DNA of 64,000 nt, from contig JAKSZU010000032.1 in the NCBI GenBank assembly GCA_026018925.1, positions 682,001-746,000 on the forward strand. Direction: 5' to 3'. A program made the translations under genes and the position numbers. Below are positions 7,165-64,000 of this stretch, one piece after another. The first letter of the stretch is position 1, and the number at the start of each line of letters is the position of its first letter. The notes under the pieces were generated by a model that did no database searches, was not told where the DNA came from, and saw nothing but the letters and a program-made list of their open reading frames with translations. Origin of the DNA: Tupaia tana. Its lineage: Eukaryota; Chordata; Mammalia; Scandentia; Tupaiidae.

Positions 7165-7170
7165 CCATGG
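7165..7170. repeat. CCATGG marker monomers at unit ends (six in window)
   Basis: CCATGG was found only at 7165, 7836, 15390, 16397, 33547 and 49522. Each is followed by CCTAACCCTAACCCTA, GCAGACACCTCAAGCTAAC and then a TCCAACC monomer. After four of the six the sequence restarts with the rare CCATAATACTGAA variant; the 7165 copy is followed by a CGTAACAGTTACCC variant instead. The monomer marks the end of Y units and one place inside each X unit, so it ties the two higher-order repeats together. Confidence 0.75.
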
Positions 7171-27830: not shown

Positions 27831-28499
27831 CTCAAACCACAGACCTAACCCTAACCCTAGGCAGATACCTTAAGCTCAACCCCAACCCTAACCGGACCGT
27901 CACGCTAACTCCAAACGTAACATTGAACCGAAAACTAACAGTAGCCCTAAACTTACTCCCTCAAACTAAGTTCAATGCTAACCTAACCTGAAGCCTAAAT
28001 GAAACCATAGACCTAACCCTAAACCTAGGCGGACACCTTACGCTTAACCCCCACCCTAACCTGACCCTGACGCTTACACCAACCGTAACAATGAACCGAA
28101 AACTAACAGTAGCCCTAAACTTACTCCCTCAAACTAAGTTCAAACCTAACCTAACCTGGAGCCTAACTCAAACCACAGACCTAACCCTAACCCTGGGAGG
28201 ACACCTTAAGCTCAACCCCAACCCTAACCTGACCCTCACGCTAACTCCAACTGTAACACTGAACCGAAAACTAACAGTAGCCCTAAACTTACTCCCTCAA
28301 ACTCAGTTCAAACCTAACTTAACCTGGAGCCTAACTCAAACCATAGACCTAACCCTAACCCTAGGCGGACACCTGAAGCTTAACCCAAACCCGAACCTGA
28401 CCCTGACGCTATCTTCAACCGTAACACTGAACCGAAAACTAACAGTAGCCCTAAACTTACTCCCTCAAACTAAGTTTAAACCTAACCTAACCTGAAGCC

Positions 28500-28836
28500 T
28501 AACTCAAACCACAGACTTAACCCTAACACTAGGCGGACACCTTAAGCTCAACCCCAACCCTAACCTGGCCCTGACGCTAACTCCAACCGTAACACTGAAC
28601 CGAAAACTAAGAGTAGCCCTAAACTTACTGCCTCAAACTAAGTTCCAACCTAACCTAACCTGAAGCCTAAATGAAACCATACACCTAACCCTAACCCTAG
28701 GAGGACACCTTAAGGTCAACCCCAACCCTAACCTGGCCATGACGGTAACTCCAACAGTAACAGTTACCCGAAAACTAACAGTAGCCCTAAACTTACTCCC
28801 TCAAACTAAGTTCAAACCTAACCTAACCTGAAGCCT
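28500..28836 (+). repeat. Two-monomer segment present in X1, absent from X2 and X3
   Basis: After the AAACCCGAACC monomer (about 28386 in X1, 44692 in X2) X1 has two monomers, one with TTAACCCTAACACTAGGCGG, before the CTAACTCTAACCACAG monomer at about 28833. X2 goes straight to that monomer at about 44806. Offsets change from 16305 to 15969, which is 336 bp. Confidence 0.75.
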
Positions 28837-37800: not shown

Positions 37801-40644
37801 CCCTAACCTGACCCCTGACGCTTACTCCAACTGTAACAGTTAACCGAAAACTAACAATAGCCCTAAACTTACTCCCTCAAACTAACTTCAAACCTAACCT
37901 AACTTGAAGCCTAACTCAAACCATAGACCTAACCCTAACCCAGGCGGACACCTGTAACTCAACCACATCCCTAACCAGACTCTGACGCTATGTCCAACCG
38001 TAAGACTGAACCGAAAACTAACAGTAGCCCTAAACTTACTCCCTCAAACTAAGTTCACACCTAAGCTAACCTGAAGCCTAACTCAAACCATAGACCTAAC
38101 CCTAACCCAAGGCGGACAACTGAAGCTCAACCCAAACCCTAACCTGACCCTGACGCTATCTCCAACCGTAACACTGAACCGAAAAACTAACAGTAGCCCT
38201 AAACTTACTCCCTCAAACTAAGTTGAAACCTAACCTAACCTGAAGCCTATCTCAAACCACAGACCTAACCCTAACCCTGGGCGGACACCTTAAGCTCAAC
38301 CCCAACCCTAACCGGACCCTCACGCTAACTCCAAACGTAACACTGAACCAAAAAACTAACAGTAGCCCTAAACTTACTCCCTCAAACTAAGTTCAAACCT
38401 AACCTAACCTGAAGCCTAACTCAAACAATAGACCTAACCCTAACCCTAGGTGGACACCTTAAGCTTAACCCCAACCCTAACCTGACCCTGAGGCTAAATC
38501 CAACCGTAACACTGAACTGAAAACTAACAATAGACCTAAGCTGACTCCCTCAAACTAAGTTCAAACCTAACCTAACCTGAAGCCTAAATCAAATCATAGA
38601 CCTAACCCTAACCCTAGGCGGACACCTCATGCTTAAACCCCACCTTACCCTGGCCTTGAGGCTTACTCCAACTGTAACAGTTAACCGAAAACTAACAGTA
38701 GCCCTAAACTTACTCCCTCAAACTAACTTCAAACCTAACCTAACCTGAAGCCTAAATCAAACCATACACCTAACCGTAACTCTAGGCGGACACCTTAAGC
38801 TCAACCCCAAACATAACCTGGCCCTAACGCTAACTCCAACCGTAACAGTTACCCAAAAACTAACAGTAGCCCTAAACTTACTCCCTCAATCTAAGTTCAA
38901 ACCTAACCTAACCTGAAGCCAAAATCAAACCATAAAACCTAACCCTAACCCTAGGCGGACACCTTAAGCTCAACCAGAACCCTAACCTGACCCTCACACT
39001 AACTCCAACTGTAACACTGAACCGAAAAACTAACAGTAGCCCTAAACTTACTCCCTCAAACTAAGTTCAAACCTAACCTAACCTGAAGCCTAACTCAAAC
39101 CACAGACCTAACCCTAACCCTAGGAGGACACCTTAAGCTCAACCCCAACCCTAACCTGACCCTCACGCTAATTCCAACCATAACACTGAAACAAAAACTA
39201 ACAGTAGCCCTAAACTTACTCCCTCAAACTAAGTTCAAACCTAACCTAACCTGAAGCCTAACTCAAACAATAGACCTAACCCTAACCCTAGGCGGACACC
39301 TTAAGCTTAACCCCAAACCTAACCTGACCCTGAGGCTAAATCGAACCGTAACACTGAACCGAAAACTAACAGTGGCCCTAAACTTACTCCCTCAAACTAA
39401 GTTCAATCCTAACCTAACCTGAAGCCTAAATGAAACCATAGACCTAACCCTAACCCTAGGAGGACACCTTATGCTTAACCCCCACCCTAACCTGACGCTG
39501 ACGCTTACTCCAACCGTAACAGTTAAACGAAAACTAACAGTAGCCCTAAACTTACTCCCTCAAACTAAGTTCAAACCTAACCTAACCTGAAGCCTAAATC
39601 AAACCATACACCTAACCCTAATCCTAGGCGAACACCTTAAGCTCAACCCAACCCTAACCTGGCCCTGACGCTAACTCCAACCGTAACACTGAACCAAAAC
39701 TAAGAGTAGCCCTAAACTTACTCCCTCAAACTAACTTCAAACCTAACCTAACCTGAAGCCTAACTCAAACCATAGACCTAACCCTAACCCAAGGCGGACA
39801 CCTGAAGCTCAACCCCAACCCTAACCTGACCCTGACGCTATCTCCAACCGTAACACTGAACCGAAAACTAACAGTAGCCCTAAACTTACTCCCTCAAACT
39901 AAGTTCAAACCTAACGTAACCTGAACCCTATCTCAAACCACAGACCTAACCTAACCCTAGGTGGACACCTTAAGCTCAACCCCAACCATAACCAAACACT
40001 CACGCTAACTCCAAATGTAACACTGAACCAAAAACTAACAGTAGCCCTAAACTTACTCCCTCAAACTAGTTCAAACCTAACATAACCTGAAGCCTAAATC
40101 AAACCATACACCTAATCCTAACCCTAGGCGGGACACCTTAAGCTCAACCCCCAAACCTAACCTGACCCTGACGCTTACTCCAACCGTAACAGTTAACCGA
40201 AAACTAACAGTAGCCCTAAACTGACTCCCTCAAACTAAGTTCAAACCTAACCTAACCTCAAGCCTAAATCAAACCATACACCTAACCCTAACCCTAGGCG
40301 GACACCTTAAGCTCAACCCCAACCCTAACCTGGTCCTGACGCTAACTCCAACAGTAAGAGTTACCCGAAAACTAACAGTAGCCCTAAACTTACTCCCTCA
40401 AACTAACTTCAAACCTAACCTAATTTCAAGCCTAACTCAAACCATAGACCTAACCCTAACCCTAGACGGACACCTGAAACTCAACCACAACCCTAACCAG
40501 ACCCTGACGCTATCTCCAACCGTAACACTGAACCGAAAATTAACAGTAGCCCTAAACTGACTCCCTCAAACTAAGTTCAAACCTAACCTAACCTGAAGCC
40601 TAAATCAAATAAAAGACCTAACCCTAACCCTAGGCGGACAACTT

Positions 40645-41220
40645 ATGCTTAACCCCCACCCTAACCTGACCCTGACGCTTACTCCAACTGTAACAGTTAA
40701 CCGAAAACTAACAGTAGCCCTGAACTTACACCCTCAAACTAACTTCAAACCTAATCTAACCAGAAGCCTATCTCAAACCATAGACCTAACCCTAACCCTA
40801 GGCGGACACCTTAAGCTCAACACCAACCCTAACCTGACCCTGACGCTATCTCCAACCGTAACACTGAACCGAAAACTAACAGTAGCCCTAAACTTACTCC
40901 CTCAAACTAAGTTCAAACCTAACCTAACCTGAAGCCTAAAGGAAACCATACACCTAACCCTAACCCAAGGCGGACATCTTATGGTTAACCCCCCACCATA
41001 ACCTGACCCTGACGCTTACTCCAACCGTAACAGTTAACCGAAAACTAACAGTAGCCCTGAACTTACACCCTCAAACTAACTTCAAACCTAATCTAACCAG
41101 AAGCCTATCTCAAACCATAGACCTAACCCGAACCCTAGGCGGACACCTTAAGCTCAACACCAACCCTAACCTGACCCTGACGCTATCTCCAACCGTAACA
41201 CTGAACCGAAAACTAACAGT
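40645..41220 (+). repeat. Two-monomer local duplication at the X1/X2 junction
   Basis: The rare CCTGAACTTACACCC monomer and its successor occur at 40719 and again at 41056, two monomers apart. The same pair is at 56674 and 57010 at the X2/X3 junction. At the start of X1 the monomer occurs once (near 22234). The left part of the first copy (ATGCTTAACCCCCACC, then CCAACTGTAACAGTTAACC) is of the type found at the right of X units, so the monomer looks like a hybrid formed by the exchange that made the tandem X array. Confidence 0.6.
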
Positions 41221-44200
41221 ACCCTAAACTTATTCCCTCAAACTAAGTTCAAACCTAACCTAAACTGAAGCCTAACTCAAACCACAGACCTAACCCTAAC
41301 CCTAGGCGGACACATTAAGCTTATCCCCAACCCTAACCTGACCCTCACGCTAACTCCAACCATAACACTGAACCGAAAACTAACAGTAGCCCTAAACTTA
41401 CTCCCTCAAACTAACTTCAAACCTAACCTAACCTGAAGCCTAAATTAAACCATACACCTAACCCTAAACCTAGGCGGACACCTTAAGCTCAACCCGAACC
41501 CTAACCTGACCTCCAGGCTAACTCCAACCATATCACTGAACCGAAAACTAAGAGTAGTCCTAAACTTACTCCCTCAAACTAAGTTCAATCCTAACCTAAC
41601 CTGAAGCCTAAATGAAACCATAGACCTAACCCTAACCCTATGCGGACACCTTATTGTTAACCCCCACCATAACCTGACCCTGACGCTTACTCCAACCATA
41701 ACAGTTAAACGAAAACTAACAGTAGCCCTAAACTTACTCGCGCAAACTAAGTTCAAACCTAACCTAACCTGAATCCTAAATCAAACCATACACCTAACCC
41801 TAACCCTAGGCGGACACCTTAAGCTCAACCCCAACCCGAACCTGGCCTTGACGCTAACTCCAACCGTAACAGTTACCCGAAAACTAACAGTAGCACTAAA
41901 CTTACTCCCTCAAACTAACTTCAAACCTAACCTAACTTGAAGCCTAACTCAAACCATAGACCTAACCCTAACCCTAGGCGGACACCTGAAACTCAACCAC
42001 AACCCTAACCAGACCCTGACGCTATCTCCAATCGTAACACTGAACCGAAAACAAACAGTAGCCCTAAACTTACTCCCTCAAACTAAGTTCAAACCTAACC
42101 TAACCTGGACCCTAACTCAAACCATAGACCTAACCCTAACCCTAGGAGGACACCTTAAGCTCAACCCCAACCCTAACCTGACCCTCACGCTAACTCCAAC
42201 CGTAAAACTGAACCGAAAACTAACAGTAGCCCTAAACTTACTCCCTCAAAACTAAGTTCAAACCTAACCTAACCTGAAGCCTAACTCAAACAATAGACCT
42301 AAACCTAACCCTAGGCGGACACCTTAAGCTTGACCCCAACCCTAACCTGACCCTGAGGCTAAATTCAACCGTAACACTGAACCAAAAAATACAATAGGCC
42401 TAAACTTACTCCCTCAAACTAAGTTCAAACCTAACCTAACCTGAAGCCTAACTCAAACCATAGACCTAACCTTAACCCTAGGCGGACACCTTAAGCTCAA
42501 CCCCAACCCTAACCTGGCCCTGACGCTAACTCCAACAGTAACAGTTACCCCGAAAACTAACAGTAGCCCTAAACTTACTCCCTCAAACTAAGTTCAAACC
42601 TAACCTAACTTGAAGCCTAACTCAAACCATAGACCTAACCCTAACACTAGGCAGACACCTGAAACTCAACCCCAACCCTAACCTGACCCTGACGCTATCT
42701 CCAACCGTAACACTGAACTGAAAACTAACACTAGCCCTAAACTTATTCCCTCAAACTAAGTTCAAACCTAACCTAACCTGAAGCCTAACTCAAAACACAG
42801 ACCTAACCCTAACCCTAGGCCGACACCTTAAGCTTATCCCCAACCCTAACCTGACCCTCACGCTAACTCCAACCATAACACTGAACCGAAAACTAACAGT
42901 AGCCCTAAACTTACTCCCTCAAACTAACTTCAAAACCTAACCTAACCTGAAGCCTAAATTAAACCATACACCTAACCCTAACCCTAGGCCGACACCTTAA
43001 GCTCAACCCCAACCCTAACCTGACCTCCAGGCTACCTCCTACCATATCACTGAACCGAAAACTAAGAGTAATCCTAAACTTACTCCCTCAAACTAAGTTC
43101 AATCCTAACCTAACCTGAAGCCTAAATCAAACCATACACCTAACCCTAACCCTAGGCGGACACCTTAAGCTCAACCCCAACCCTAACCTGGCCCTTACGC
43201 TAACTCCAACAGTAACAGTTACCCGAAAATTAACACTATCCCAAAAACTAACTCCCTCAAACTAACTTCAAACCTAACCTAACTTGAAGCCTAACTCAAA
43301 CCATAGACCTAACCCTAACCCTAGGCGGACAACTGAAACTCAACCACAACCCTAACCAGACCCTGACGCTATCTCCAACCGTAACACTGAACCGAAAACT
43401 AACAGTAGCCCTAAACTTACTCCCTCAAACTACGTTCAAACCTAACCTAACCTGAAGCCTAAAGGAAACCATACACCTAACCCTAACCCAAGGCGGACAC
43501 CTTATGGTTAACCCCCCACCATAACCTGACCCTGACGCTTATTCCAACCGTAACAGTTAACCGAAAACTAACAGTAGCCCTGAACTTACACCCTCAAACT
43601 AACTTCAAACCTAATCTAACCAGAAGCCTATCTCAAACCATAGACCTAACCCTAACCCTAGGCGGACACCTTAAGCTCAACACCAACCCTAACCTGACCC
43701 TGACGCTATCTCCAACCGTAACACTGAACCGAAAACTAACAGTAGCCCTAAACTTACTCCCTCAAACTAAGTTCAAACCTAACCTATCCTGGACCCTAAC
43801 TCAAACCATAGACCTAACCCTAACCCTAGGCGGACACCTGAAGCTCCATCACAACCCTAACCTTACCCTGACGCTATCTCCAACCGTAACACTGAACCGA
43901 AAACTAACAGTAGTCCTAAACTTACTTCCTCAAACTACGTTCAAACCTAACCTAACCTGAAGCCTAACTCAAACCACAGACATAACCCTAACCCTAGGAG
44001 GACACCTTAAGCTCAACCCCAACCCTAACCTGACCCTCAAGCTAACTCCAACCGTAACACTGAACCAAAAACTAACAGTAGCCCTAAACTTACTCCCTCA
44101 AACTAAGTTCAAACCTAACCTAACCTGAAGCCTAACTCAAACCACAGACCTAACCCTAACCCTAGGCAGATACCTTAAGCTCAACCCCAACCCTAACCGG

Positions 44201-47200
44201 ACCGTCACGCTAACTCCAAACGTAACATTGAACCGAAAACTAACAGTAGCCCTAAACTTACTCCCTCAAACTAAGTTCAATGCTAACCTAACCTGAAGCC
44301 TAAATGAAACCATAGACCAAACCCTAAACCTAGGCGGACACCTTATGCTTAACCCCCACCCTAACCTGACCCTGACGCTTACACCAACCGTAACACTGAA
44401 CCGAAAACTAACAGTAGCCCTAAACTTACTCCCTCAAACTAAGTTCAAACCTAACCTAACCTGGAGCCTAACTCAAACCACAGACCTAACCCTAACCCTG
44501 GGAGGACACCTTAAGCTCAACCCCAACCCTAACCTGACCCTCACGCTAACTCCAACTGTAACACTGAACCGAAAACTAACAGTAGCCCTAAACTTACTCC
44601 CTCAAACTCAGTTCAAACCTAACTTAACCTGGAGCCTAACTCAAACCATAGACCTAACCCTAACCCTAGGCGGACACCTGAAGCTTAACCCAAACCCGAA
44701 CCTGACCCTGACGCTATCTTCAACCGTAACACTGAACCGAAAACTAACAGTAGCCCTAAACTTACTCCCTCAAACTAAGTTCAAACCTAACCTAACCTGA
44801 AGCCTAACTCTAACCACAGACCTAACCCTAAACCTAGGAGGACACCTTAAGCACAACCCCAACCCTATTCTGACCCTCAGGCTAACTCCAACCGTAACAC
44901 TGAATCGAAAACTAACAGTAGCCCTAAACTTACTCTCTCAAACTAAGTTCAAACCTAACCTAACCTGAAGACTAACTCAAACAATAGGCCTAACCCTAAC
45001 CCTAGGCGGACACCTTAAGCTTGACCCCAACCCTAACCTGACCCTGACGCTTACTCCAACCGTAACAGTTAACCGAAAACTAACAGTAGCCATAAACTTA
45101 CTCCCTCAAACTAAGTTCAAACCTAACCTAACCTGAAGCCTAACTCAAAGCACAGACCTAACCCTAACCCTAGGCGAACACCTTAAGCTCAACCCCAACC
45201 CTAACCGGACCCTCACACTAACTCCAAACGTAACATTGAACCGAAAACTAACAGTAGCCATAAACTTACTCCCTCAAACTAAGTTCAATCCTAACCTAAC
45301 CTGAAGCCTAAATGAAACCATAGACCTAACCCTAACCCTAGGCGGACACCTTAAGCTCAACCCCAACCCTAACCTGGCCCTGACGCTAACTCCAGCCGTA
45401 ACAGTTACCCGAAAACTAACAGTAGCCCTAAACTTACTGCCTCAAACTAATTTCCAACCTATCCTAACCTGAAGCCTAAATCAAACCATACACCTAACCC
45501 TAACCCTAGGCGGACACCTTAAGCCCAACCCCAACCCTAACCTGGCCCTGACGCTAACTCCAACAGTAACAGTTACCCGAAAACTAACAGTAGCCCTAAA
45601 CTTACTCCCTCAAACTAAGTTCAAACCTAACCTAACCTGAAGCCTAACTCAAACAATAGACCTAACCCTAACCCTATGCGGACACCTTAAGCTTAACCCC
45701 AAACCTAACCTGACCCTGAGGCTAAATCGAACCGTAACACTGAACCGAAAACTAACAGTGGCCCTAAACTTACTCGCTCAAACTAAGTGCAATGCTAACC
45801 TAACCTGAATCCTCAATGAAACCATAGACCTAACCCTAACCCTAGGCGGACACCTGAAGTTCAAACCCAACCCTAACCTGACCCTCACGCTAACTCCAAC
45901 CGTAACACTGAACCGAAAACTAACAGTAGCCCTAAACTTAATCCCTCAAACTAAGTTCAAACCTAACCTAACCTGAAGCCTAACTCAAACCATAGACCTA
46001 ACCCTAACCCTAGGCGGACACCTGAAGCTCAACCCCAACCCTAACCTGACCCTGAGGCTAAATCCAACCGTAACACTGAACCGAAAACTAACAGTAGACG
46101 TAAACTGACTCCCTCAAACTAATTTCAAACCTAACCTAACCTGAAGCCTAAATCAAATCATAGACCTAACCCTAACCCTAGGCGAACACCTTATGTTTAA
46201 CCCCACCCTACCCTGACCCTGACGCTTACTCCAACTGTAACAGTTAACCGAAAACTAACAGTAGCCCTAAACTTACTCCCTCAAACTAACTTCAAACCTG
46301 ACCTAACCTGAAGCCTAAATCAAACCATACACCTAACCCTAACCCTAGGCGGACACCTTAAGCTCAACCCCAAACCTAACCTGACCCTGACGCTTACTCC
46401 AACCATAACAGTTAACCGAAAACTAACAGCAGCCCTAAACTTACGCCCTCAAACTAAGTTCAAACATAACGTAACCTGAAGCCTAAATCAAACCATACAC
46501 CTAACCGTAACTCTAGGCGGACACCTTTAGCTCAACCCCAAACACAACCTGGCCCTTACGCTAACTCCAACCGTAACAGTTACCCCAAAACTAACAGTAG
46601 CCCTAAACTTACTCCCTCAATCTAAGTTCAAACCTAACCTAACCTGAAGCCTAAATCAAACCATACACCTAACCCTAACCCTAGGCGGACACCTTAAGCT
46701 CAACCCCAACCCTAACCTGACCCTCACGCTAACTCCAACCGTAACACTGAACCGAAAACTAACAGTAGCCCTAAACTTACTCCCCTCAAACTAAATTCAA
46801 ACCTAACCTAAACTGAAGACTAACTCAAACAATAGACCTAACCCTAACCCTAGGTGGGACACCTTATGCTTAACCCCCGCCCTAACCTGACCCTGACGCT
46901 TACTCCAACCGTAACAGTTAACCGAAAACTAACAATAGCCCTAAACTTACTCCCTCAAACTAAGTTCAAACCTAACCTAACCTGAAGCGTAAATCAAACC
47001 ATACACCTAACCCTAACCCTAGGCGGACACCTTAAGCTCAACCCCAAACCTAACCTGACCCTGACGCTTACCTCCAAACGTAACAGTTAACCGAAAACTA
47101 ACAGTAGCCCTAAACTGACTCCCTCAAACTAAGTTCAAACCTAACCTAACCTGAAGCCTAAATCAAATCATAGACCTAACCCTAACCCTAGGCGGACACC

Positions 47201-50200
47201 TTATGCTTAACCCCCACCCTAACCTGACCCTGACGCTTACTCCAACTGTAACAGTTAACCGAAAACTAACAATAGCCCTAAACTTACTCCCTCAAACTAA
47301 CTTCAAACCTAACCTAACCTGAAGCCTAAATCAAACCATACACCTAACACTAACCCTAGGCAGGCACCTTAAGCTCAACCCCAACCCTAACCTGGCCCTG
47401 ACGCTAACACCAACAGTAAAAGTTACCCGAAAACTAACAGTAGCCCTAAACTTACTCCCTCAAACTAACTTCAAACCTAACCTAACCTGAAGCCTAACTC
47501 AAACCATAGACCTAACCCTAACCCAAGGTGGACACCTGAATCTCAACCCCACCCCTAACCTGACCCTGACGCTATCTCTAATCCTAACACTGAACCGAAA
47601 ACTAACAGTAGCCCTAAACTTACTCCCTCAAACTAAGTTCAAACCTAACCTAGCCTGAAGCCTATCTCAAACCACAGACCTAACCCTAACCCTAGGCGGA
47701 CACCTTAAGCTCAACCCCAACCCTAACCGGACCCTCACGCTAACTCCAAACGTAACACTGAACCAAAAACTAACAGTAGCCCTAAACTTACTCCCTCAAA
47801 CTAAGTTCACAAACCTAACCTAACCTGAAGCCTAACTAAAACAATAGACCTAACCCTAACCCTAGGCGGACACCTTAAGCTTAACCCCAACCCTAACCTG
47901 TCCCTGAGCCTAAATCCAACCGTAACACTGAACCGAAAACTAACAGTAGACCTAAATTGACTCCCTCAAACTAAGTTCAAACCTAACCTAACCTGAAGCC
48001 TAAATCAAATCATAGACCTAACCCTAACCCTAGGCGGACACCTCATGCTTAAACCCCACCCTACCCTGACCCTGACGCTTACTCCAACTGTAACAGTTAA
48101 CCGAAAACTAACAGCAGCCCTAAACTTACTCCCTCAAACTAACTTCAAACCTAACCTAACCTGAAGCCTAAATCAAACCATACACCTAACCCTAACCCTA
48201 GGCGGACACCTTAAGCTCAACCCCAAACCTAACCTGACCCTGACGCTTACTCCAACCATAACAGTTAACCGAAAACTAACAGCAGCCCTAAACTTACGCC
48301 CTCAAACTAAGTTCAAACATAACCTAACCTGAAGCCTAAATCAAACCATACACCTAACCCTAACCCTAGGCGGACACCTTAATCTCAACCCCAAACATAA
48401 CCTGGCCCTTCCGCTAACTCCAACCGTAACAGTTACCCAAAAACTAACAGTAGCCCCAAACTTACTCCCTCAATCTAAGTTCAAACCTAACCTAACCTGA
48501 AGCATAAATCAAACCATAAACCTAACCCTAACCCTATGCGGACACCTTAAGCTCAACCTCAACCCTAACCTGGCCCTGACGCTAACTCCAACTGTAACAG
48601 TTACCCGAAAACTAACAGTAGCCCTAAACTTACTGCCTCAAACTAAGTTCAAACCTAACCTAACCTGAAGCCTAAATCAAACCATACACCTAACCCTAAC
48701 CCTAGGCGGACACCTGAAGTTCAAACCCAACCCTAACCTGACCCTCACGCTAATTCCAACGGTAACACTGAACCGAAAACTAACAGTAGCCCTAAACTTA
48801 CTCCCTAAAACTAAGTTCAAACCTAACCTAACCTGAAGCCTAACTCAAACCATAGACCTAACCCTAACTCTAGGGCGGACACCTGAAGCTCAACCCCAAC
48901 CCTAACCTGACCCTGACGCTATATCTCCAACCGTAACACTGAACCGAAAACTAACAGTAGCCCTAACTTACTCCCTCAAACTAAGTTCAAACCTAACCTA
49001 ACCTGAAGCCTAACTCAAACAATAGACCTAACCCTAACCCTAGGCGGACACCTTAAGCTTGACCCCAACCCTTACCTGACCCTGAGGCTAAATTCAACCG
49101 TAACACTGAACCAAAAAATACAATAGGCCTAAACTTACTCCCTCAAACTAAGTTCAAACCTAACATAACCTGAAGCCTAACTCAAATCATAGACCTAACC
49201 CTAACAATAGGCGGACACCAGAAGCTCAAACCCAACCCTAACCTGACCCTGACGCTATCTCCAACCGTAACACTGAACCGAAAACTAACAGTAGCCCTAA
49301 AGTTACTCACTCAAACTAAGTTCAACCGTAACCTAACCTGAAGCCTAAATCAAAGCACAGACCTAACCATCACCCTAAACGGACACCTTAATCTCAACTC
49401 CAACCCTAACCTGACCCTGACGCTATCTCCAACCGTAACACTGAACGGAAACTAACAGTAGCCCTAAACTTACTCACTCAAACTAAGTTCAAATATAACC
49501 TACCCTGGAGCCTAAATCAAACCATGGACCTAACCCTAACCCTAGGCAGACACCTCAAGCTAACCCCAACCCTAACCTGACACTGACGCTAACTCCAACC
49601 ATAATACTGAACCGAGAACTAACAATAGCCCTAAACTTACTCCCTCAAACTAAGTTCACACCTAACCTAACCTGAAGCCTAAATCAAACCATACACCTAA
49701 CCCTAACCCTAGGCGGACACCTTAACTTCAACCCCAAACCTAACCTGACCCTGACGCTTACTCCAACTGTAACAGTTAACCGAAAACTAACAGTAGCCCT
49801 AAACTTACTCCCTCAAACTAAGTTCAAACATAACCTAACCTGAAGCCTAAATCAAACCATACACCTAACCCTAACCCTATGCGGACACCTTAAGCTCAAC
49901 CTCAACCCTACCTGGCCCTGACGCTAACTCCAACCGTAACAGTTACCCGAAAACTAACAGTAGCCCTAAACTTACTGCCTCAAACTAAGTTCAAACCTAA
50001 CCTAACCTGAAGCCTAAATCAAACCATACACCTAACCCTAACCCTAGGCGGACACCTGAAGTTCAAACCCAAACCTAACCTGACCCTCACGCTAACTCCA
50101 ACCGTAACACTGAACCAAAAACTAACAGTAGCCCTAAACTTACTCCCTAAAACTAAGTTCAAACCTAACCTAACCTGAAGCCTAACTCAAACAATAGACC

Positions 50201-53200
50201 TAACCCTAACCCTAGGCGGACACCTTAAGCTTGACCCCAACCCTTACCTGACCCTGAGGCTAAATCCAACCGTAACACGGAACTGAAAACTAACAGTAGC
50301 CCTAAACTTACTCCCTGCAAACTAAGTTCAAACCTAACCTAACCTGAAGCCTAACTCAAACCACAGACCTAACCCTAACCCTAGGCGGACACCTTAAGCT
50401 CAACCCCAACCCTAACCTGGCCCTGACGCTAACTCCAACAGTAACAGTTACCCGAAAACTAACAGTAGCCCTAAACTTATTCCCTCAAACTAAGTTCAAA
50501 CCTAACCTAACCTGAAGCCTAACTCAAACCACAGACCTAACCCTAACCCTAGGCGGACACCTTAAGCTTATCCCCAACCCTAACCTGACCCTCACGCTAA
50601 CTCCAACCATAACACTGAACCGAAAACTAACGGTAGCCCTAAACTTACTCCCTCAAACTAACTTCAAACCTAACCTAACCTGAAGCCTAAATGAAACCAT
50701 AGACCTAACCCTAACCCTAGGCGGACACCTTAAGCTCAACCCCAACTCTAACCTGACCTCCAGGCTAACTCCAACCATATCACTGAACCGAAAACTAAGA
50801 ATAGTCCTAAACTTACTCCCTCAAACTAAGTTCAATCCTAACCTAACCTGAAGCCTAAATGAAACCATAGACCTAACCCTAACCCTAAGCGGACACCTTA
50901 GGGTTAACCCCCACCATAACCTGACCCTGACGCTTTCTCCAACCGTAACATTTAAACGAAAACTAACAGTAGCCCTAAACTTACTCCCTCAAACTAAGTT
51001 CAAACCTAACCTAACCTGAAGCCTAAATCAAACCATACACCTAACCCTAACCCTAGGCGGACACCTTAAGCTCACCCCAAACCTAACCTGACCCTGACGC
51101 TTACTCCAACCGTAACAGTTAACCGAAAACTAACAGTAGCCCTAAACTGACTCCCTCAAACTAAGTTCAAACCTAACCTAACCTGAAGCCTAAATCAAAT
51201 CATAGACCTAACAGTAACCCTAGGCGGACACCTTATGTTTAACCCCCACCCTAACCTGACCCTGACGCGTACTCCAACTGTAACAGTTAACCGAAAACTA
51301 ACAGTAGCCCTAAACTTACTCCCTCAAACTAACTTCAAACTTAACCTAACCTGAAGCCTAAATCAAACCATACACGAAACCCTAACCCTAGGCGGACACC
51401 TTAACCTCAACCCCAACCCTAACCTGGCCCTGACGCTAATCCAACAGTAACAGTTACCCGAAAACTAACAGTAGCCCTAAACTTACTCCCTCAAACTAAC
51501 TTCAAACCTAACCTAATTGAAGCCTAACTCAAACCATAGACCTAACCCTAACCCTAGGCGGACACCTGAAACTCAACCACAACCCTAACCAGACCCTGAC
51601 GCTATCTCCAACCGTAACACTGTACCGAAAACTCACAGTAGGCCTAAACTTACTCCCTCAAACTACGTTCAATCCTAACCTAACCTGAAGCCTAAATGAA
51701 ACCATAGACCTAACCCTAACCCTAGGCGGACACCTTATGCTTAACCCCCACCCTAACCTGACCCTGAAACTTACTACAACCGTAACAGTTAAATGAAAAT
51801 TAACAGTAGCCCTTAACTGTCTCCCTCAAACTAAGTTCAAACCTAACCTAACCTGAAGCCTAACTCAAACAATAGACCTAACCCTAACCCTAGGCGGACA
51901 CCTTAACTTATCCCCAACCATAACCTGAACCTCACGCTAACTCCAACCATAACACTGAAGCGAAAACTAACAGTAGCCCTAAAACTTACTCCCTCAAACT
52001 AACTTCAAACCTAACCTAACCTGAAGCCTAAATTAAACAATACACCTAACCCTAACCCTAGGCGGACAACTTAAGCTCAACCCCAACCCTATCCTGACCT
52101 CCAGGCTAACTCCAACCATATCACTGATCGAAAACTAAGAGTAGTCCTAAACTTACTCACTCAAATTAAGTTCAATCCTAACCTAACCTGAAGCCTAAAT
52201 AAAACCATAGACCTAACCCTAACCCTAGGCGGACACCTTAAGCTCAACCCCAACCCTAACCTGGCCTTGACGCTAACTCCAACCGTAACAGTTACACAAA
52301 AACTAACAGTAGCCCTAAACTTACTGCCTCAAACTAAGTTCCAACCTAACCTAACCTGAAGCCTAAATGAAACCATACACCTAACCCTAACCGTAGGCGG
52401 ACACCTTAAGCTCAACCCCAACCCTAACCTGACCCTGATGCTAACTCCAACAGTAACCGTTCCCCGAAAACTAACAGTAGCCCTAAACTTACTCCTCAAA
52501 CTAAGTTCAAACCTAACCTAACCTGAAGCCTAACTCAAACCACAGACCTAACCCTAAACCTACGAGGACACCTTAAGCACAACCCCAACCCTAACCTGAC
52601 CCTCACGCTAACTCCAACCGTAACACTGAACCGAAAACTAACAGTAGCCCTAAACTTACTCCCTCAAACTAAGTTCAAACCTAACCTAACCTGAAGACTA
52701 ACTCAAACAATAGACCTAACCCTAACCCTAGGCGGACACCTTAAGCTTGACCCCAAACCTAACCTGACCCTGACGCTTACTCCAACCGTAACAGTTAGCC
52801 AAAAACTAACAGTAGCCCTAAACTTACTCCCTCAAACTAAGTTCAAACCTAACCTAACCTGAAGCCTAACTCAACCACAGACCTAACCCTAACCCTAGGC
52901 GAACACCTTAAGCTCAACCCCAACGCTAACCGGACCCTCACGCTAACTCCAAACGTAACATTGTACCGAAAACTAACAGTAGCCCTAAACTTAGTCCCTC
53001 AAACTAAGTTCAATCCTAACCTAACCTGAAGCCTAAATGAAACCATAGACCTAACCCTAACCCTAGGCGGACACCTTATGCTTAACCCCCACCCTAACCT
53101 GACCCTGACGCTTACTCCAACCGTAACAGTTAAATGAAAACTAACAGTAGCCCTAAACTGTCTCCTCAAATTAAGTTCAAACATAACCTAACCTGAAGCC

Positions 53201-56200
53201 TAACTCAAACAATAGACCTAACCCTAACCCTAGGAGGACACCTTAAGCTTAACCCCAAACCTAACCTGACCCTGAGGCTAAATCGAACCGTAACACTGAA
53301 CCGAAAACTAACAGTGGCCCTAAACTTACTCCCTCAAACTAAGTTAAATCCTAACCTAACCTGAAGCCTAAATGAAACCATAGACCTAACCCTAACCCTA
53401 GGCGGACACCTTATGATTAACCCCCACCCTAACCTGACCCTGACGCTTACTCCAACCGTAACCTTTAAACGAAAACTAACAGTAGCCCTAAACTTACTCC
53501 TCAAACTCAGTACAAACCTAACCTAACCTGAAGCCTAAATCAAACCATACACCTAACCCTAACCCTAGGCAGACACCTTAAGCTCAACCCCAAACCTAAC
53601 CTGACCCTGACGCTTACTCCAACCGTAACAGTTAACCGAAAACAAACAGTAGCCCTAAACTCAATCCCTAAAAACTAAGTTCAAACCTAACCTAACCTGA
53701 AGCCTAAATCAAATCATAGACCTAACCCTTACCCTAGGCGGACACCTTATGCTTAACCCCCACCCTAACCTGACCCTGACGCTTACTCCAACTGTAACAG
53801 TTAACCGAAAACTAACATAGCCCTAAACTTACTCCCTCAAACTAACTTCAAACCTAACCTAACTTGAAGCCTAACTCAAACCATAGACCTAACCCTAACC
53901 CAGGCGGACACCTGTAACTCAACCACATCCCTAACCAGACTCTGACGCTATGTCCAACCGTAAGACTGAACCGAAAACTAACAGTAGCCCTAAACTTACT
54001 CCCTCAAACTAAGTTCACACCTAAGCTAACCTGAAGCCTAACTCAAACCATAGACCTAACCCTAACCCAAGGCGGACAACTGAAGCTCAACCCAAACCCT
54101 AACCTGACCCTGACGCTATCTCCAACCGTAACACTGAACCGAAAACTAACAGTAGCCCTAAACTTACTCCCTCAAACTAAGTTGAAACCTAACCTAACCT
54201 GAAGCCTATCTCAAACCACAGACCTAACCCTAACCCTGGGCGGACACCTTAAGCTCAACCCCAACCCTAACCGGACCTCACGCTAACTCCAAACGTAACA
54301 CTGAACCAAAAACTAACAGTAGCCCTAAACTTACTCCCTCAAACTAAGTTCAAACCTAACCTAACCTGAAGCCTAACTCAACAATAGACCTAACCCTAAC
54401 CCTAGGTGGACACCTTAAGCTTAACCCCAACCCTAACCTGACCCTGAGGCTAAATCCAACCGTAACACTGAACTGAAAACTAACAATAGACCTAAGCTGA
54501 CTCCCTCAAACTAAGTTCAAACCTAACCTAACCTGAAGCCTAAATCAAATCATAGACCTAACCCTAACCCTAGGCGGACACCTCATGCTTAAACCCCACC
54601 TTACCCTGGCCTTGAGGCTTACTCCAACTGTAACAGTTAACCGAAAACTAACAGTAGCCCTAAACTTACTCCCTCAAACTAACTTCAAACCTAACCTAAC
54701 CTGAAGCCTAAATCAAACCATACACCTAACCGTAACTCTAGGCGGACACCTTAAGCTCAACCCCAAACATAACCTGGCCCTAACGCTAACTCCAACCGTA
54801 ACAGTTACCCAAAAACTAACAGTAGCCCTAAACTTACTCCCTCAATCTAAGTTCAAACCTAACCTAACCTGAAGCCAAAATCAAACCATAAACCTAACCC
54901 TAACCCTAGGCGGACACCTTAAGCTCAACCAGAACCCTAACCTGACCCTCACACTAACTCCAACTGTAACACTGAACCGAAAACTAACAGTAGCCCTAAA
55001 CTTACTCCCTCAAACTAAGTTCAAACCTAACCTAACCTGAAGCCTAACTCAAACCACAGACCTAACCCTAACCCTAGGAGGACACCTTAAGCTCAACCCC
55101 AACCCTAACCTGACCCTCACGCTAATTCCAACCATAACACTGAAACAAAAACTAACAGTAGCCCTAAACTTACTCCCTCAAACTAAGTTCAAACCTAACC
55201 TAACCTGAAGCCTAACTCAAACAATAGACCTAACCCTAACCCTAGGCGGACACCTTAAGCTTAACCCCAAACCTAACCTGACCCTGAGGCTAAATCGAAC
55301 CGTAACACTGAACCGAAAACTAACAGTGGCCCTAAACTTACTCCCTCAAACTAAGTTCAATCCTAACCTAACCTGAAGCCTAAATGAAACCATAGACCTA
55401 ACCCTAACCCTAGGAGGACACCTTATGCTTAACCCCCACCCTAACCTGACGCTGACGCTTACTCCAACCGTAACAGTTAAACGAAAACTAACAGTAGCCC
55501 TAAACTTACTCCCTCAAACTAAGTTCAAACCTAACCTAACCTGAAGCCTAAATCAAACCATACACCTAACCCTAATCCTAGGCGAACACCTTAAGCTCAA
55601 CCCCAACCCTAACCTGGCCCTGACGCTAACTCCAACCGTAACACTGAACCAAAACTAAGAGTAGCCCTAAACTTACTCCCTCAAACTAACTTCAAACCTA
55701 ACCTAACCTGAAGCCTAACTCAAACCATAGACCTAACCCTAACCCAAGGCGGACACCTGAAGCTCAACCCCAACCCTAACCTGACCCTGACGCTATCTCC
55801 AACCGTAACACTGAACCGAAAACTAACAGTAGCCCTAAACTTACTCCCTCAAACTAAGTTCAAACCTAACGTAACCTGAACCCTATCTCAAACCACAGAC
55901 CTAACCCTAACCCTAGGTGGACACCTTAAGCTCAACCCCAACCATAACCAAACACTCACGCTAACTCCAAATGTAACACTGAACCAAAAACTAACAGTAG
56001 CCCTAAACTTACTCCCTCAAACTAAGTTCAAACCTAACATAACCTGAAGCCTAAATCAAACCATACACCTAATCCTAACCCTAGGCGGACACCTTAAGCT
56101 CAACCCCAAACCTAACCTGACCCTGACGCTTACTCCAACCGTAACAGTTAACCGAAAACTAACAGTAGCCCTAAACTGACTCCCTCAAACTAAGTTCAAA

Positions 56201-56886
56201 CCTAACCTAACCTCAAGCCTAAATCAAACCATACACCTAACCCTAACCCTAGGCGGACACCTTAAGCTCAACCCCAACCCTAACCTGGTCCTGACGCTAA
56301 CTCCAACAGTAAGAGTTACCCGAAAACTAACAGTAGCCCTAAACTTACTCCCTCAAACTAACTTCAAACCTAACCTAATTTCAAGCCTAACTCAAACCAT
56401 AGACCTAACCCTAACCCTAGACGGACACCTGAAACTCAACCACAACCCTAACCAGACCCTGACGCTATCTCCAACCGTAACACTGAACCGAAAATTAACA
56501 GTAGCCCTAAACTGACTCCCTCAAACTAAGTTCAAACCTAACCTAACCTGAAGCCTAAATCAAATAAAAGACCTAACCCTAACCCTAGGCGGACAACTTA
56601 TGCTTAACCCCCACCCTAACCTGACCCTGACGCTTACTCCAACTGTAACAGTTAACCGAAAACTAACAGTAGCCCTGAACTTACACCCTCAAACTAACTT
56701 CAAACCTAATCTAACCAGAAGCCTATCTCAAACCATAGACCTAACCCTAACCCTAGGCGGACACCTTAAGCTCAACACCAACCCTAACCTGACCCTGACG
56801 CTATCTCCAACCGTAACACTGAACCGAAAACTAACAGTAGCCCTAAACTTACTCCCTCAAACTAAGTTCAAACCTAACCTAACCTG
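40932..56886 (+). repeat. Higher-order repeat unit X2 (about 95 monomers, 15.95 kb)
   Basis: A complete unit between the GCCTAAAGGAAACC monomers at 40932 and 56887. Its CCTCCAGG monomers at 41510 and 43024 recur in X3 at 57464 and 58975, and TACAATAGG at 42390 recurs at 58343. Offsets to X3 drift only from 15955 to 15945. Substitutions that distinguish X2 from X1 (AAGCTCCATCAC at 43840, CCTTTAGCTC at 46526, ATCCTAACACTG at 47581) are also in X3, so X2 and X3 are each other's closest relatives. I found single-base indels but almost no substitutions between them. Confidence 0.88.
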
Positions 56887-59800
56887 AAGCCTAAAGGAAA
56901 CCATACACCTAACCCTAACCCAAGGCGGACATCTTATGGTTAACCCCCACCATAACCTGACCCTGACGCTTACTCCAACCGTAACAGTTAACCGAAAACT
57001 AACAGTAGCCCTGAACTTACACCCTCAAACTAACTTCAAACCTAATCTAACCAGAAGCCTATCTCAAACCATAGACCTAACCCGAACCCTAGGCGGACAC
57101 CTTAAGCTCAACACCAACCCTAACCTGACCCTGACGCTATCTCCAACCGTAACACTGAACCGAAAACTAACAGTACCCTAAACTTATTCCCTCAAACTAA
57201 GTTCAAACCTAACCTAAACTGAAGCCTAACTCAAACCACAGACCTAACCCTAACCCTAGGCGGACACATTAAGCTTATCCCCAACCCTAACCTGACCCTC
57301 ACGCTAACTCCAACCATAACACTGAACCGAAAACTAACAGTAGCCCTAAACTTACTCCCTCAAACTAACTTCAAACCTAACCTAACCTGAAGCCTAAATT
57401 AAACCATACACCTAACCCTAAACCTAGGCGGACACCTTAAGCTCAACCCGAACCCTAACCTGACCTCCAGGCTAACTCCAACCATATCACTGAACCGAAA
57501 ACTAAGAGTAGTCCTAAACTTACTCCCTCAAACTAAGTTCAATCCTAACCTAACCTGAAGCCTAAATGAAACCATAGACCTAACCCTAACCCTATGCGGA
57601 CACCTTATTGTTAACCCCCACCATAACCTGACCCTGACGCTTACTCCAACCATAACAGTTAAACGAAAACTAACAGTAGCCCTAAACTTACTCGCGCAAA
57701 CTAAGTTCAAACCTAACCTAACCTGAATCCTAAATCAAACCATACACCTAACCCTAACCCTAGGCGGACACCTTAAGCTCAACCCCAACCCGAACCTGGC
57801 CTTGACGCTAACTCCAACCGTAACAGTTACCCGAAAACTAACAGTAGCACTAAACTTACTCCCTCAAACTAACTTCAAACCTAACCTAACTTGAAGCCTA
57901 ACTCAAACCATAGACCTAACCCTAACCCTAGGCGGACACCTGAAACTCAACCACAACCCTAACCAGACCCTGACGCTATCTCCAATCGTAACACTGAACC
58001 GAAAACAAACAGTAGCCCTAAACTTACTCCCTCAAACTAAGTTCAAACCTAACCTAACCTGGACCCTAACTCAAACCATAGACCTAACCCTAACCCTAGG
58101 AGGACACCTTAAGCTCAACCCCAACCCTAACCTGACCCTCACGCTAACTCCAACCGTAAAACTGAACCGAAAACTAACAGTAGCCCTAAACTTACTCCCT
58201 CAAACTAAGTTCAAACCTAACCTAACCTGAAGCCTAACTCAAACAATAGACCTAAACCTAACCCTAGGCGGACACCTTAAGCTTGACCCCAACCCTAACC
58301 TGACCCTGAGGCTAAATTCAACCGTAACACTGAACCAAAAAATACAATAGGCCTAAACTTACTCCCTCAAACTAAGTTCAAACCTAACCTAACCTGAAGC
58401 CTAACTCAAACCATAGACCTAACCTTAACCCTAGGCGGACACCTTAAGCTCAACCCCAACCCTAACCTGGCCCTGACGCTAACTCCAACAGTAACAGTTA
58501 CCCGAAAACTAACAGTAGCCCTAAACTTACTCCCTCAAACTAAGTTCAAACCTAACCTAACTTGAAGCCTAACTCAAACCATAGACCTAACCCTAACACT
58601 AGGCAGACACCTGAAACTCAACCCCAACCCTAACCTGACCCTGACGCTATCTCCAACCGTAACACTGAACTGAAAACTAACACTAGCCCTAAACTTATTC
58701 CCTCAAACTAAGTTCAAACCTAACCTAACCTGAAGCCTAACTCAAAACACAGACCTAACCCTAACCCTAGGCCGACACCTTAAGCTTATCCCCAACCCTA
58801 ACCTGACCCTCACGCTAACTCCAACCATAACACTGAACCGAAAACTAACAGTAGCCCTAAACTTACTCCCTCAAACTAACTTCAAACCTAACCTAACCTG
58901 AAGCCTAAATTAAACCATACACCTAACCCTAACCCTAGGCCGACACCTTAAGCTCAACCCCAACCCTAACCTGACCTCCAGGCTACCTCCTACCATATCA
59001 CTGAACCGAAAACTAAGAGTAATCCTAAACTTACTCCCTCAAACTAAGTTCAATCCTAACCTAACCTGAAGCCTAAATCAAACCATACACCTAACCCTAA
59101 CCCTAGGCGGACACCTTAAGCTCAACCCCAACCCTAACCTGGCCCTTACGCTAACTCCAACAGTAACAGTTACCCGAAAATTAACACTATCCCAAAAACT
59201 AACTCCCTCAAACTAACTTCAAACCTAACCTAACTTGAAGCCTAACTCAAACCATAGACCTAACCCTAACCCTAGGCGGACAACTGAAACTCAACCACAA
59301 CCCTAACCAGACCCTGACGCTATCTCCAACCGTAACACTGAACCGAAAACTAACAGTAGCCCTAAACTTACTCCCTCAAACTACGTTCAAACCTAACCTA
59401 ACCTGAAGCCTAAAGGAAACCATACACCTAACCCTAACCCAAGGCGGACACCTTATGGTTAACCCCCACCATAACCTGACCCTGACGCTTATTCCAACCG
59501 TAACAGTTAACCGAAAACTAACAGTAGCCCTGAACTTACACCCTCAAACTAACTTCAAACCTAATCTAACCAGAAGCCTATCTCAAACCATAGACCTAAC
59601 CCTAACCCTAGGCGGACACCTTAAGCTCAACACCAACCCTAACCTGACCCTGACGCTATCTCCAACCGTAACACTGAACCGAAAACTAACAGTAGCCCTA
59701 AACTTACTCCCTCAAACTAAGTTCAAACCTAACCTATCCTGGACCCTAACTCAAACCATAGACCTAACCCTAACCCTAGGCGGACACCTGAAGCTCCATC

Positions 59801-62617
59801 ACAACCCTAACCTTACCCTGACGCTATCTCCAACCGTAACACTGAACCGAAAACTAACAGTAGTCCTAAACTTACTTCCTCAAACTACGTTCAAACCTAA
59901 CCTAACCTGAAGCCTAACTCAAACCACAGACATAACCCTAACCCTAGGAGGACACCTTAAGCTCAACCCCAACCCTAACCTGACCCTCAAGCTAACTCCA
60001 ACCGTAACACTGAACCAAAAACTAACAGTAGCCCTAAACTTACTCCCTCAAACTAAGTTCAAACCTAACCTAACCTGAAGCCTAACTCAAACCACAGACC
60101 TAACCCTAACCCTAGGCAGATACCTTAAGCTCAACCCCAACCCTAACCGGACCGTCACGCTAACTCCAAACGTAACATTGAACCGAAAACTAACAGTAGC
60201 CCTAAACTTACTCCCTCAAACTAAGTTCAATGCTAACCTAACCTGAAGCCTAAATGAAACCATAGACCAAACCCTAAACCTAGGCGGACACCTTATGCTT
60301 AACCCCCACCCTAACCTGACCCTGACGCTTACACCAACCGTAACACTGAACCGAAAACTAACAGTAGCCCTAAACTTACTCCCTCAAACTAAGTTCAAAC
60401 CTAACCTAACCTGGAGCCTAACTCAAACCACAGACCTAACCCTAACCCTGGGAGGACACCTTAAGCTCAACCCCAACCCTAACCTGACCCTCACGCTAAC
60501 TCCAACTGTAACACTGAACCGAAAACTAACAGTAGCCCTAAACTTACTCCCTCAAACTCAGTTCAAACCTAACTTAACCTGGAGCCTAACTCAAACCATA
60601 GACCTAACCCTAACCCTAGGCGGACACCTGAAGCTTAACCCAAACCCGAACCTGACCCTGACGCTATCTTCAACCGTAACACTGAACCGAAAACTAACAG
60701 TAGCCCTAAACTTACTCCCTCAAACTAAGTTCAAACCTAACCTAACCTGAAGCCTAACTCTAACCACAGACCTAACCCTAAACCTAGGAGGACACCTTAA
60801 GCACAACCCCAACCCTATTCTGACCCTCAGGCTAACTCCAACCGTAACACTGAATCGAAAACTAACAGTAGCCCTAAACTTACTCTCTCAAACTAAGTTC
60901 AAACCTAACCTAACCTGAAGACTAACTCAAACAATAGGCCTAACCCTAACCCTAGGCGGACACCTTAAGCTTGACCCCAACCCTAACCTGACCCTGACGC
61001 TTACTCCAACCGTAACAGTTAACCGAAAACTAACAGTAGCCATAAACTTACTCCCTCAAACTAAGTTCAAACCTAACCTAACCTGAAGCCTAACTCAAAG
61101 CACAGACCTAACCCTAACCCTAGGCGAACACCTTAAGCTCAACCCCAACCCTAACCGGACCCTCACACTAACTCCAAACGTAACATTGAACCGAAAACTA
61201 ACAGTAGCCATAAACTTACTCCCTCAAACTAAGTTCAATCCTAACCTAACCTGAAGCCTAAATGAAACCATAGACCTAACCCTAACCCTAGGCGGACACC
61301 TTAAGCTCAACCCCAACCCTAACCTGGCCCTGACGCTAACTCCAGCCGTAACAGTTACCCGAAAACTAACAGTAGCCCTAAACTTACTGCCTCAAACTAA
61401 TTTCCAACCTATCCTAACCTGAAGCCTAAATCAAACCATACACCTAACCCTAACCCTAGGCGGACACCTTAAGCCCAACCCCAACCCTAACCTGGCCCTG
61501 ACGCTAACTCCAACAGTAACAGTTACCCGAAAACTAACAGTAGCCCTAAACTTACTCCCTCAAACTAAGTTCAAACCTAACCTAACCTGAAGCCTAACTC
61601 AAACAATAGACCTAACCCTAACCCTATGCGGACACCTTAAGCTTAACCCCAAACCTAACCTGACCCTGAGGCTAAATCGAACCGTAACACTGAACCGAAA
61701 ACTAACAGTGGCCCTAAACTTACTCGCTCAAACTAAGTGCAATGCTAACCTAACCTGAATCCTCAATGAAACCATAGACCTAACCCTAACCCTAGGCGGA
61801 CACCTGAAGTTCAAACCCAACCCTAACCTGACCCTCACGCTAACTCCAACCGTAACACTGAACCGAAAACTAACAGTAGCCCTAAACTTAATCCCTCAAA
61901 CTAAGTTCAAACCTAACCTAACCTGAAGCCTAACTCAAACCATAGACCTAACCCTAACCCTAGGCGGACACCTGAAGCTCAACCCCAACCCTAACCTGAC
62001 CCTGAGGCTAAATCCAACCGTAACACTGAACCGAAAACTAACAGTAGACGTAAACTGACTCCCTCAAACTAATTTCAAACCTAACCTAACCTGAAGCCTA
62101 AATCAAATCATAGACCTAACCCTAACCCTAGGCGAACACCTTATGTTTAACCCCACCCTACCCTGACCCTGACGCTTACTCCAACTGTAACAGTTAACCG
62201 AAAACTAACAGTAGCCCTAAACTTACTCCCTCAAACTAACTTCAAACCTGACCTAACCTGAAGCCTAAATCAAACCATACACCTAACCCTAACCCTAGGC
62301 GGACACCTTAAGCTCAACCCCAAACCTAACCTGACCCTGACGCTTACTCCAACCATAACAGTTAACCGAAAACTAACAGCAGCCCTAAACTTACGCCCTC
62401 AAACTAAGTTCAAACATAACGTAACCTGAAGCCTAAATCAAACCATACACCTAACCGTAACTCTAGGCGGACACCTTTAGCTCAACCCCAAACACAACCT
62501 GGCCCTTACGCTAACTCCAACCGTAACAGTTACCCCAAAACTAACAGTAGCCCTAAACTTACTCCCTCAATCTAAGTTCAAACCTAACCTAACCTGAAGC
62601 CTAAATCAAACCATACA

Positions 62618-62635
62618 CCTAACCCTAACCCTAGG
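62618..62635 (-). promoter_or_regulatory. Telomere-type Myb (TRF/telobox-like) sites, example monomer
   Basis: Seen: TAACCCTAA at 62620-62628 and TAACCCTAG at 62626-62634 overlap, and a third match, CAACCCTAA, lies at 62657-62665. All three fit the complement of YTAGGGTTR, the known DNA target of vertebrate TRF1/TRF2 Myb domains. The same three sites, with 6 and 31 bp spacing, recur in most monomers, so the window may hold many hundreds of them. Binding is inference; the sites are short and could simply be relics of telomeric ancestry. Confidence 0.5.
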
Positions 62636-62787
62636 CGGACACCTTAAGCTCAACCCCAACCCTAACCTGACCCTCACGCTAACTCCAACCGTAACACTGA
62701 ACCGAAAACTAACAGTAGCCCTAAACTTACTCCCTCAAACTAAATTCAAACCTAACCTAAACTGAAGACTAACTCAAACAATAGACC
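62620..62787 (+). repeat. Representative near-consensus monomer (28 degenerate hexamers)
   Basis: This 168-bp unit runs from one TAACCCTAACCC block to the next. Hand count: A 64, C 60, T 29, G 15, so G is about 9% on this strand. Cut into 28 hexamers from its first base, 22 of 28 have A at position 3, 19 of 28 have T at position 1 (19 of only 29 T's in the unit), and 20 of 28 have C at position 6. That matches the TAACCC register. Two hexamers are still perfect telomere units and most others differ by one to three bases. The monomer therefore looks like a decayed run of telomere repeat later amplified as a block. Confidence 0.9.
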
Positions 62788-64000
62788 TAACCCTAACCCT
62801 AGGTGGACACCTTATGCTTAACCCCCGCCCTAACCTGACCCTGACGCTTACTCCAACCGTAACAGTTAACCGAAAACTAACAATAGCCCTAAACTTACTC
62901 CCTCAAACTAAGTTCAAACCTAACCTAACCTGAAGCGTAAATCAAACCATACACCTAACCCTAACCCTAGGCGGACACCTTAAGCTCAACCCCAAACCTA
63001 ACCTGACCCTGACGCTTACTCCAAACGTAACAGTTAACCGAAAACTAACAGTAGCCCTAAACTGACTCCCTCAAACTAAGTTCAAACCTAACCTAACCTG
63101 AAGCCTAAATCAAATCATAGACCTAACCCTAACCCTAGGCGGACACCTTATGCTTAACCCCCACCCTAACCTGACCCTGACGCTTACTCCAACTGTAACA
63201 GTTAACCGAAAACTAACAATAGCCCTAAACTTACTCCCTCAAACTAACTTCAAACCTAACCTAACCTGAAGCCTAAATCAAACCATACACCTAACACTAA
63301 CCCTAGGCAGGCACCTTAAGCTCAACCCCAACCCTAACCTGGCCCTGACGCTAACACCAACAGTAAAAGTTACCCGAAAACTAACAGTAGCCCTAAACTT
63401 ACTCCCTCAAACTAACTTCAAACCTAACCTAACCTGAAGCCTAACTCAAACCATAGACCTAACCCTAACCCAAGGTGGACACCTGAATCTCAACCCCACC
63501 CCTAACCTGACCCTGACGCTATCTCTAATCCTAACACTGAACCGAAAACTAACAGTAGCCCTAAACTTACTCCCTCAAACTAAGTTCAAACCTAACCTAG
63601 CCTGAAGCCTATCTCAAACCACAGACCTAACCCTAACCCTAGGCGGACACCTTAAGCTCAACCCCAACCCTAACCGGACCCTCACGCTAACTCCAAACGT
63701 AACACTGAACCAAAAACTAACAGTAGCCCTAAACTTACTCCCTCAAACTAAGTTCAAACCTAACCTAACCTGAAGCCTAACTAAAACAATAGACCTAACC
63801 CTAACCCTAGGCGGACACCTTAAGCTTAACCCCAACCCTAACCTGTCCCTGAGCCTAAATCCAACCGTAACACTGAACCGAAAACTAACAGTAGACCTAA
63901 ATTGACTCCCTCAAACTAAGTTCAAACCTAACCTAACCTGAAGCCTAAATCAAATCATAGACCTAACCCTAACCCTAGGCGGACACCTCATGCTTAAACC

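Follow-up and report, generated by a model that had tools for sequence, protein, structure and literature searches.

The 64-kb window analyzed here (the whole stretch of 64,000 nucleotides, corresponding to C453:682001-746000) is part of a longer array of a 168-bp satellite, which we take, with a probability of roughly 0.9, to descend from a stretch of telomere repeat that decayed before being amplified, probably near chromosome ends. The satellite fills the window head to tail without interruption (1..64000, + strand). TRF reports 380.9 copies with a period of 168 over 1-63988, in agreement with the approximately 381 monomers given in an earlier, sequence-only reading of the same DNA. In the realignment, 380 of 382 monomer rows were kept, with a mean identity to the consensus of 93.9%, and the monomer consensus was built from 380 monomers of the window. 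A coding function was rejected, since there is no ATG-, GTG-, or TTG-started open reading frame longer than 151 residues and about one codon in 10 is a stop in each of the six frames. What the window contains is thus satellite DNA, a long noncoding head-to-tail array of near-identical units in one orientation. It is not a centromeric satellite of the CENP-B-box type, as the window holds no exact match to the CENP-B box. The AT skew, about +0.33, matches that of (TAACCC)n.

The telomeric phase is visible within a single monomer. In the reference monomer (62620..62787, + strand), which has 28 hexamer slots in TAACCC phase, 22 of 28 hexamers carry A at position 3 and 20 of 28 carry C at position 6. 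Our recount reproduces both of these earlier figures as well as the total of 29 T's, but it gives 18 rather than the claimed 19 hexamers with T at position 1. That this phasing goes beyond base composition, as had been proposed, is borne out by the consensus, whose identity at lag 6 is 0.524 versus 0.297 ± 0.036 in dinucleotide shuffles, with none of 1,000 shuffles reaching it. There is no excess at lag 7 (0.321, reached by 290 of 1,000 shuffles), and the unmasked consensus shows mild excesses at lag 5 (0.381, 9 of 1,000 shuffles) and lag 11 (6 of 1,000). Likewise, the Fourier spectrum has a power of 13.35 at period 6, versus 0.79 ± 0.53 in shuffles (0 of 1,000). Power is mildly raised at period 3, a harmonic of period 6 (16 of 1,000), and is not raised at periods 5, 7, and 8 of the consensus when compared to 1,000 shuffles.

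Two exact telomere stretches of at least 8 bp are present in the consensus: the core CCTAACCCTAACCCTA, which is the longest (consensus 167-14; 62618..62633, + strand), and AACCCTAACC (consensus 39-48; 62658..62667, + strand). It is extremely improbable, in our view, that the TAACCCTAACCC core is the only telomeric part, inserted (e.g., through the action of telomerase on a break) within an AC-rich satellite of other descent whose base composition imitates the phase. Such an origin would fit the length of the core and its rank as second in conservation among 168 overlapping 16-bp windows, although other windows are nearly equal, and short telomere insertions in unique DNA do occur elsewhere in the genome. 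However, the periodicity extends well outside the core. With consensus 1-12 masked, a test that had been set beforehand, lag-6 identity is still 0.500 (0 of 1,000 shuffles), and with both exact stretches masked it is 0.469 versus 0.289 ± 0.041 (0 of 1,000), with a period-6 power of 9.30 (0 of 1,000) and TAACCC still the best hexamer. Moreover, register 0 is the commonest in each of the four quarters of the monomer. These findings support the original proposal that the whole monomer, and not the core alone, is telomere-derived.

Without gaps, TAAACC fits the consensus slightly better than TAACCC (109 versus 106 of 168 positions) because of a one-base shift in two segments (near 25-48 and 109-144). 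When indels are allowed, TAACCC comes top among all 4- to 8-mers with a score of 71, which is not reached by any of 300 shuffles with 2-, 3-, or 4-mers preserved, while TAAACC scores 61, the arthropod-type TAACC 49, and the plant-type TAAACCC 44. The plant-type origin, which the sequence-only reading had argued against, is therefore disfavored here as well. With both exact stretches masked, TAACCC still leads TAAACC by 45 to 43. When 5-, 6-, and 7-mers were compared under six gap/mismatch settings, TAACCC was best in five for the whole consensus, and in four, with a tie in another, for the masked consensus; in both cases it failed in the setting where gaps are in effect forbidden. Among 251 distinct monomers, TAACCC is the best hexamer in 249 unmasked and 177 masked, and TAAACC is best in 64 after masking. 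We consider it very unlikely that the monomer arose from TAAACC, TAACC, or TAAACCC: the ungapped lead of TAAACC by three matches and the 64 masked monomers speak for such an origin, but the gapped scores, the prevalence of TAACCC among monomers, and the long (TTAGGG)n found at a contig end in the same genome speak against it.

Of the 170 columns in its alignment to TAACCC, the consensus matches in 123 (∼72%), mismatches in 42, and has gaps in 5. The original description of the monomer as 28 hexamers in register thus needs qualifying: the phase is real, but some five indels make the phasing nearly exact rather than exact. The 48 telomeric 4-mers of the consensus are distributed as 31, 16, and 1 over three adjacent registers. 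Having 47 of 48 within two adjacent registers is a coherence matched by none of 2,000 4-mer-preserving shuffles and by 13 of 2,000 5-mer-preserving shuffles. Together, a hexamer phase running through the entire unit and a best fit to the host's own telomere unit identify a telomere-derived repeat. We also considered a dimeric origin from 78 + 90 bp, hinted at by TRF rows and by lag 78. It is unproven, since the lag-78 maximum is reached in 1,380 of 4,000 simulations of independent decay of 28 hexamers and in 151 of 4,000 hexamer-order shuffles.

Is this likeness to telomeres a relic, or is it maintained? Minor alleles above 3% occur in 22 of the 42 telomere-mismatched columns, and in 8 of these the telomeric base is the most frequent minor allele (null 8.4 ± 1.9). 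Since minor alleles are thus not biased toward TAACCC, we take the telomere likeness for a fossil. Conservation is 0.946 in telomere-matching columns versus 0.921 in mismatched ones, a difference that is not significant (P = 0.27). Neither of these two tests, on minor alleles and on column conservation, gave signs of selection keeping the hexamer phase. We infer that decay is older than amplification, with present variation bearing no trace of it. It is nonetheless conceivable, if unlikely, that the likeness is selected, for instance for binding of telomere proteins, and that the array acts as a telomere-like cap today. The core CCTAACCCTAACCCTA holds two overlapping YAACCCTAR boxes, which are of the TRF1/TRF2 type, and within the window 854 boxes of this kind point one way and 2 the other way. 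This asymmetry, the conservation rank of the core, and the orientation and place of the arrays could all be read as signs of selection; against it stand the two tests above and the real (TTAGGG)n that exists in the genome. In any case, selection of this kind is a matter of present use, and telomeric descent could hold alongside it. Judging from the motif, TRF1 or TRF2 could bind the retained YAACCCTAR boxes, and telomere proteins might more generally bind the TAACCCTA boxes.

Within the array, a 114-monomer block (28854..48018, + strand) has a second copy that starts at 44823, 95 monomers (∼16 kb) downstream, and is 99.8% identical, which is a recent large-block duplication. Similarly, a 35-monomer block (120..5998, + strand) is repeated 47 monomers (∼7.9 kb) downstream, from 8012, also at 99.8%. 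Shorter near-identical runs of 8 to 19 monomers are found at lags of 42, 89, 102, 112, 190, 197, and 207 monomers. Short-period higher-order repeats were rejected, as neighboring monomers are 0.895 alike, no more than distant ones. Three layers can therefore be distinguished: hexamer decay (72% identity), divergence between monomers (∼10%), and recent block duplications of 8 to 16 kb (0.2%).

We then turn to the host genome, which comprises 2.948 Gb in 1,198 contigs. An exact satellite 32-mer occurs 135,218 times. The sampled arrays contain it 254 times in 926 monomers, and at this frequency the count corresponds to ∼493,000 monomers or 83 Mb; at the frequency seen in the window (126 in 380.9 monomers), it corresponds to ∼69 Mb. 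The satellite would thus make up very roughly 2.3 to 2.8% of the assembly. In C453 itself, the satellite lies on the + strand at every sampled point from 1 to 1.703 Mb and on the − strand at every one from 1.80 to 3.0986 Mb, where a stretch of N follows; beyond it there is rDNA and then satellite again in the last 9.6 kb. The start of an 18S rRNA gene near 3.1 Mb (L023 5783-6001) places rDNA inside this satellite contig, and by the rDNA, near 3.3 Mb, there is another tandem repeat with a unit of ∼243 or 490 bp (L024). A further tandem repeat, with a unit of ∼300 bp, is found at the start of C608 (L030). Near 12 kb of C508, each of the three units read of a different, GC-rich tandem repeat contains a pure (TAACCC)n tract whose length varies, and this may be a further telomere-associated satellite that is now forming. 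Seemingly unique DNA also holds short, exact (TAACCC)n insertions (L047, L048, L051, and L052), which are ordinary short interstitial telomeric sequences. Outside the host, short satellite patterns had no exact match in prokaryote and viral contigs, 1,001 satellite bases had no match in phages and plasmids, and in searches of open-licence papers with the satellite's sequence words and with word queries, we recognized no description of this satellite.

The edges of one large array, in C1086, connect the satellite to telomeric sequence. At 96.273 Mb, the satellite directly adjoins a 1,108-bp degenerate telomere tract that is 81% identical to (TAACCC)n with 33 gaps, so that here (degenerate) telomeric sequence and satellite are contiguous in the same orientation. 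At this right edge, the one junction that was read base by base, the two are in register, with no gap needed in the telomere alignment. GTACCC and ATACCC hexamers abound in the tract but are absent from the satellite consensus, so that the tract is a sibling of the satellite and not its direct parent. The flank beyond the tract contains a degenerate tandem repeat of ∼133 bp. Flank and tract are found again, inverted, near the left edge of the array 1.8 Mb off, with 374 of 400 aligned columns identical.

The region C1086:94.46-96.27 Mb thus has inverted flank and tract on both sides of the array and a strand switch inside, which lies between 95.153 and 95.25 Mb. In its orientation, this layout is as predicted for a head-to-head junction of two chromosome ends, be it a true fusion or a scaffolding join. 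A strand switch of the opposite sense, C-rich and then G-rich, is seen between 1.703 and 1.80 Mb of C453, and the switches in both arrays may be assembly joins. On the inward side of the C1086 array, ∼0.45 Mb from its left edge, there is a gene with a match to ATP-dependent DNA helicase Q4.

Genome-wide, a 361-bp flank piece is found in 26 near-full copies (92 to 100% identity), with one further weak match. For each of the 24 copies outside C1086, one 28-base read was taken on the predicted satellite side and called satellite if it agreed with the consensus at 23 of 28 bases, a bar passed by 1 of 2,000 random 28-mers and by 0 of 155 28-mers from the degenerate tract. Satellite was found in the predicted strand at 19 copies and in the opposite strand at none; three reads were N (C1163, C231, and C353), and two were not satellite (C264 and C297). 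In the 19 satellite-bearing copies, the satellite lies ∼2.5 kb beyond the flank, with the G-rich strand always leading away from it. A second probe nearer the flank gave degenerate telomere sequence in C264 and N in C297.

The flank is found on 11 scaffolds longer than 10 Mb. In six of these (C420, C642, C275, C753, C975, and C442, 14 to 199 Mb), the satellite is on the scaffold-end side, the flank being 0.03 to 1.0 Mb from the end and the G-rich strand pointing outward as in a telomere; end position was read from scaffold ends, which are not proven chromosome ends. As for the others, C1086 has one array edge outward and one inward, C353 has an outward flank 48 kb from its start with N at the probe, and the flank points inward in C231 (N at the probe) and C297 (no satellite at the probe). 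In C264, an outward flank with degenerate telomere sequence lies at 4.117 Mb, well inside the scaffold (4.1 Mb from its start), and the probed point is not satellite. Possibly, this is an end that moved inward or was never given the satellite.

True telomere repeats follow the satellite, after a stretch of N, in one contig. In C608 (1.7 Mb), all points sampled between 100 kb and 1.7004 Mb are satellite; positions 1708501-1710000 are N, and pure (TTAGGG)n in the same orientation as the satellite begins at 1710001. The 912 genome-wide matches at six-base steps suggest that this (TTAGGG)n runs nearly to the contig end. The succession of satellite, N, and (TTAGGG)n was seen in C608 only, and the degenerate tract and the true telomere were seen on different arrays, never on one.

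Descent of the satellite from a decayed telomere piece of 28 units, as originally proposed, is supported by the masked lag test, the in-register junction, and the orientation relative to the flank. We envisage that proximal telomere repeats, beyond the reach of telomerase, would have gained substitutions and a few indels. Unequal exchange in register would then have fixed and amplified a unit of ∼28 hexamers, about one nucleosome repeat long, and growth of the arrays would continue via duplication of 8- to 16-kb blocks. The satellite may have spread among chromosome ends through subtelomeric exchange, with which the 92 to 100% identity of the flank copies is consistent. The resulting arrays, presumably heterochromatic, would form caps near chromosome ends, outward of the degenerate tract and, in one contig, inward of true (TTAGGG)n.

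Parts of this picture resemble known systems. In Chironomus, complex repeats have been proposed to be telomere-derived (Nielsen and Edstrom 1993, cited in PMC9498494, PMC7653826, and PMC8233369). According to PMC9498494 and PMC7653826, these are also long complex tandem units at chromosome ends with a proposed descent from simple telomere repeats, but the satellite there forms the telomere itself (PMC9498494), whereas long, true (TTAGGG)n is present here, so that ours is not a terminal complex repeat of the Chironomus type. Heterochromatic interstitial telomeric sequences (het-ITS), e.g., those of the Chinese hamster, are likewise described, in PMC6410037, as large amplified telomere-descended blocks in heterochromatin. 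However, those are blocks of telomeric repeats, whereas we find a fixed 168-bp monomer that is ∼72% telomere-like, and the longest exact telomere-phase run within the window is 17 bp, unlike an array of TTAGGG hexamers. That paper also reports degenerate TTAGGG-like blocks dividing the proximal from the distal subtelomere (PMC6410037); the 1.1-kb tract between flank and satellite resembles them, with the difference that here a 168-bp satellite begins directly from the tract. Finally, the subtelomeric potato satellites CL14 and CL34 form arrays of up to 1 to 3 Mb from 182-bp and 339-bp monomers, joined directly to telomeric repeats at some ends, but the excerpted text of PMC3276127 does not describe them as telomere-derived.

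A bolder reading, which we regard as a long shot, is that the arrays are a second-line telomere, retained at many chromosome ends because about two TRF-type boxes per unit would still hold shelterin and the repeats would offer homology for end recombination once the true telomere is lost. The origin of nucleosome-length satellites is seldom visible. Here, several stages are found in one genome, namely true telomere, the degenerate tract, a 72% telomeric monomer, and arrays of megabase size, and whether such caps still bind telomere proteins becomes testable.
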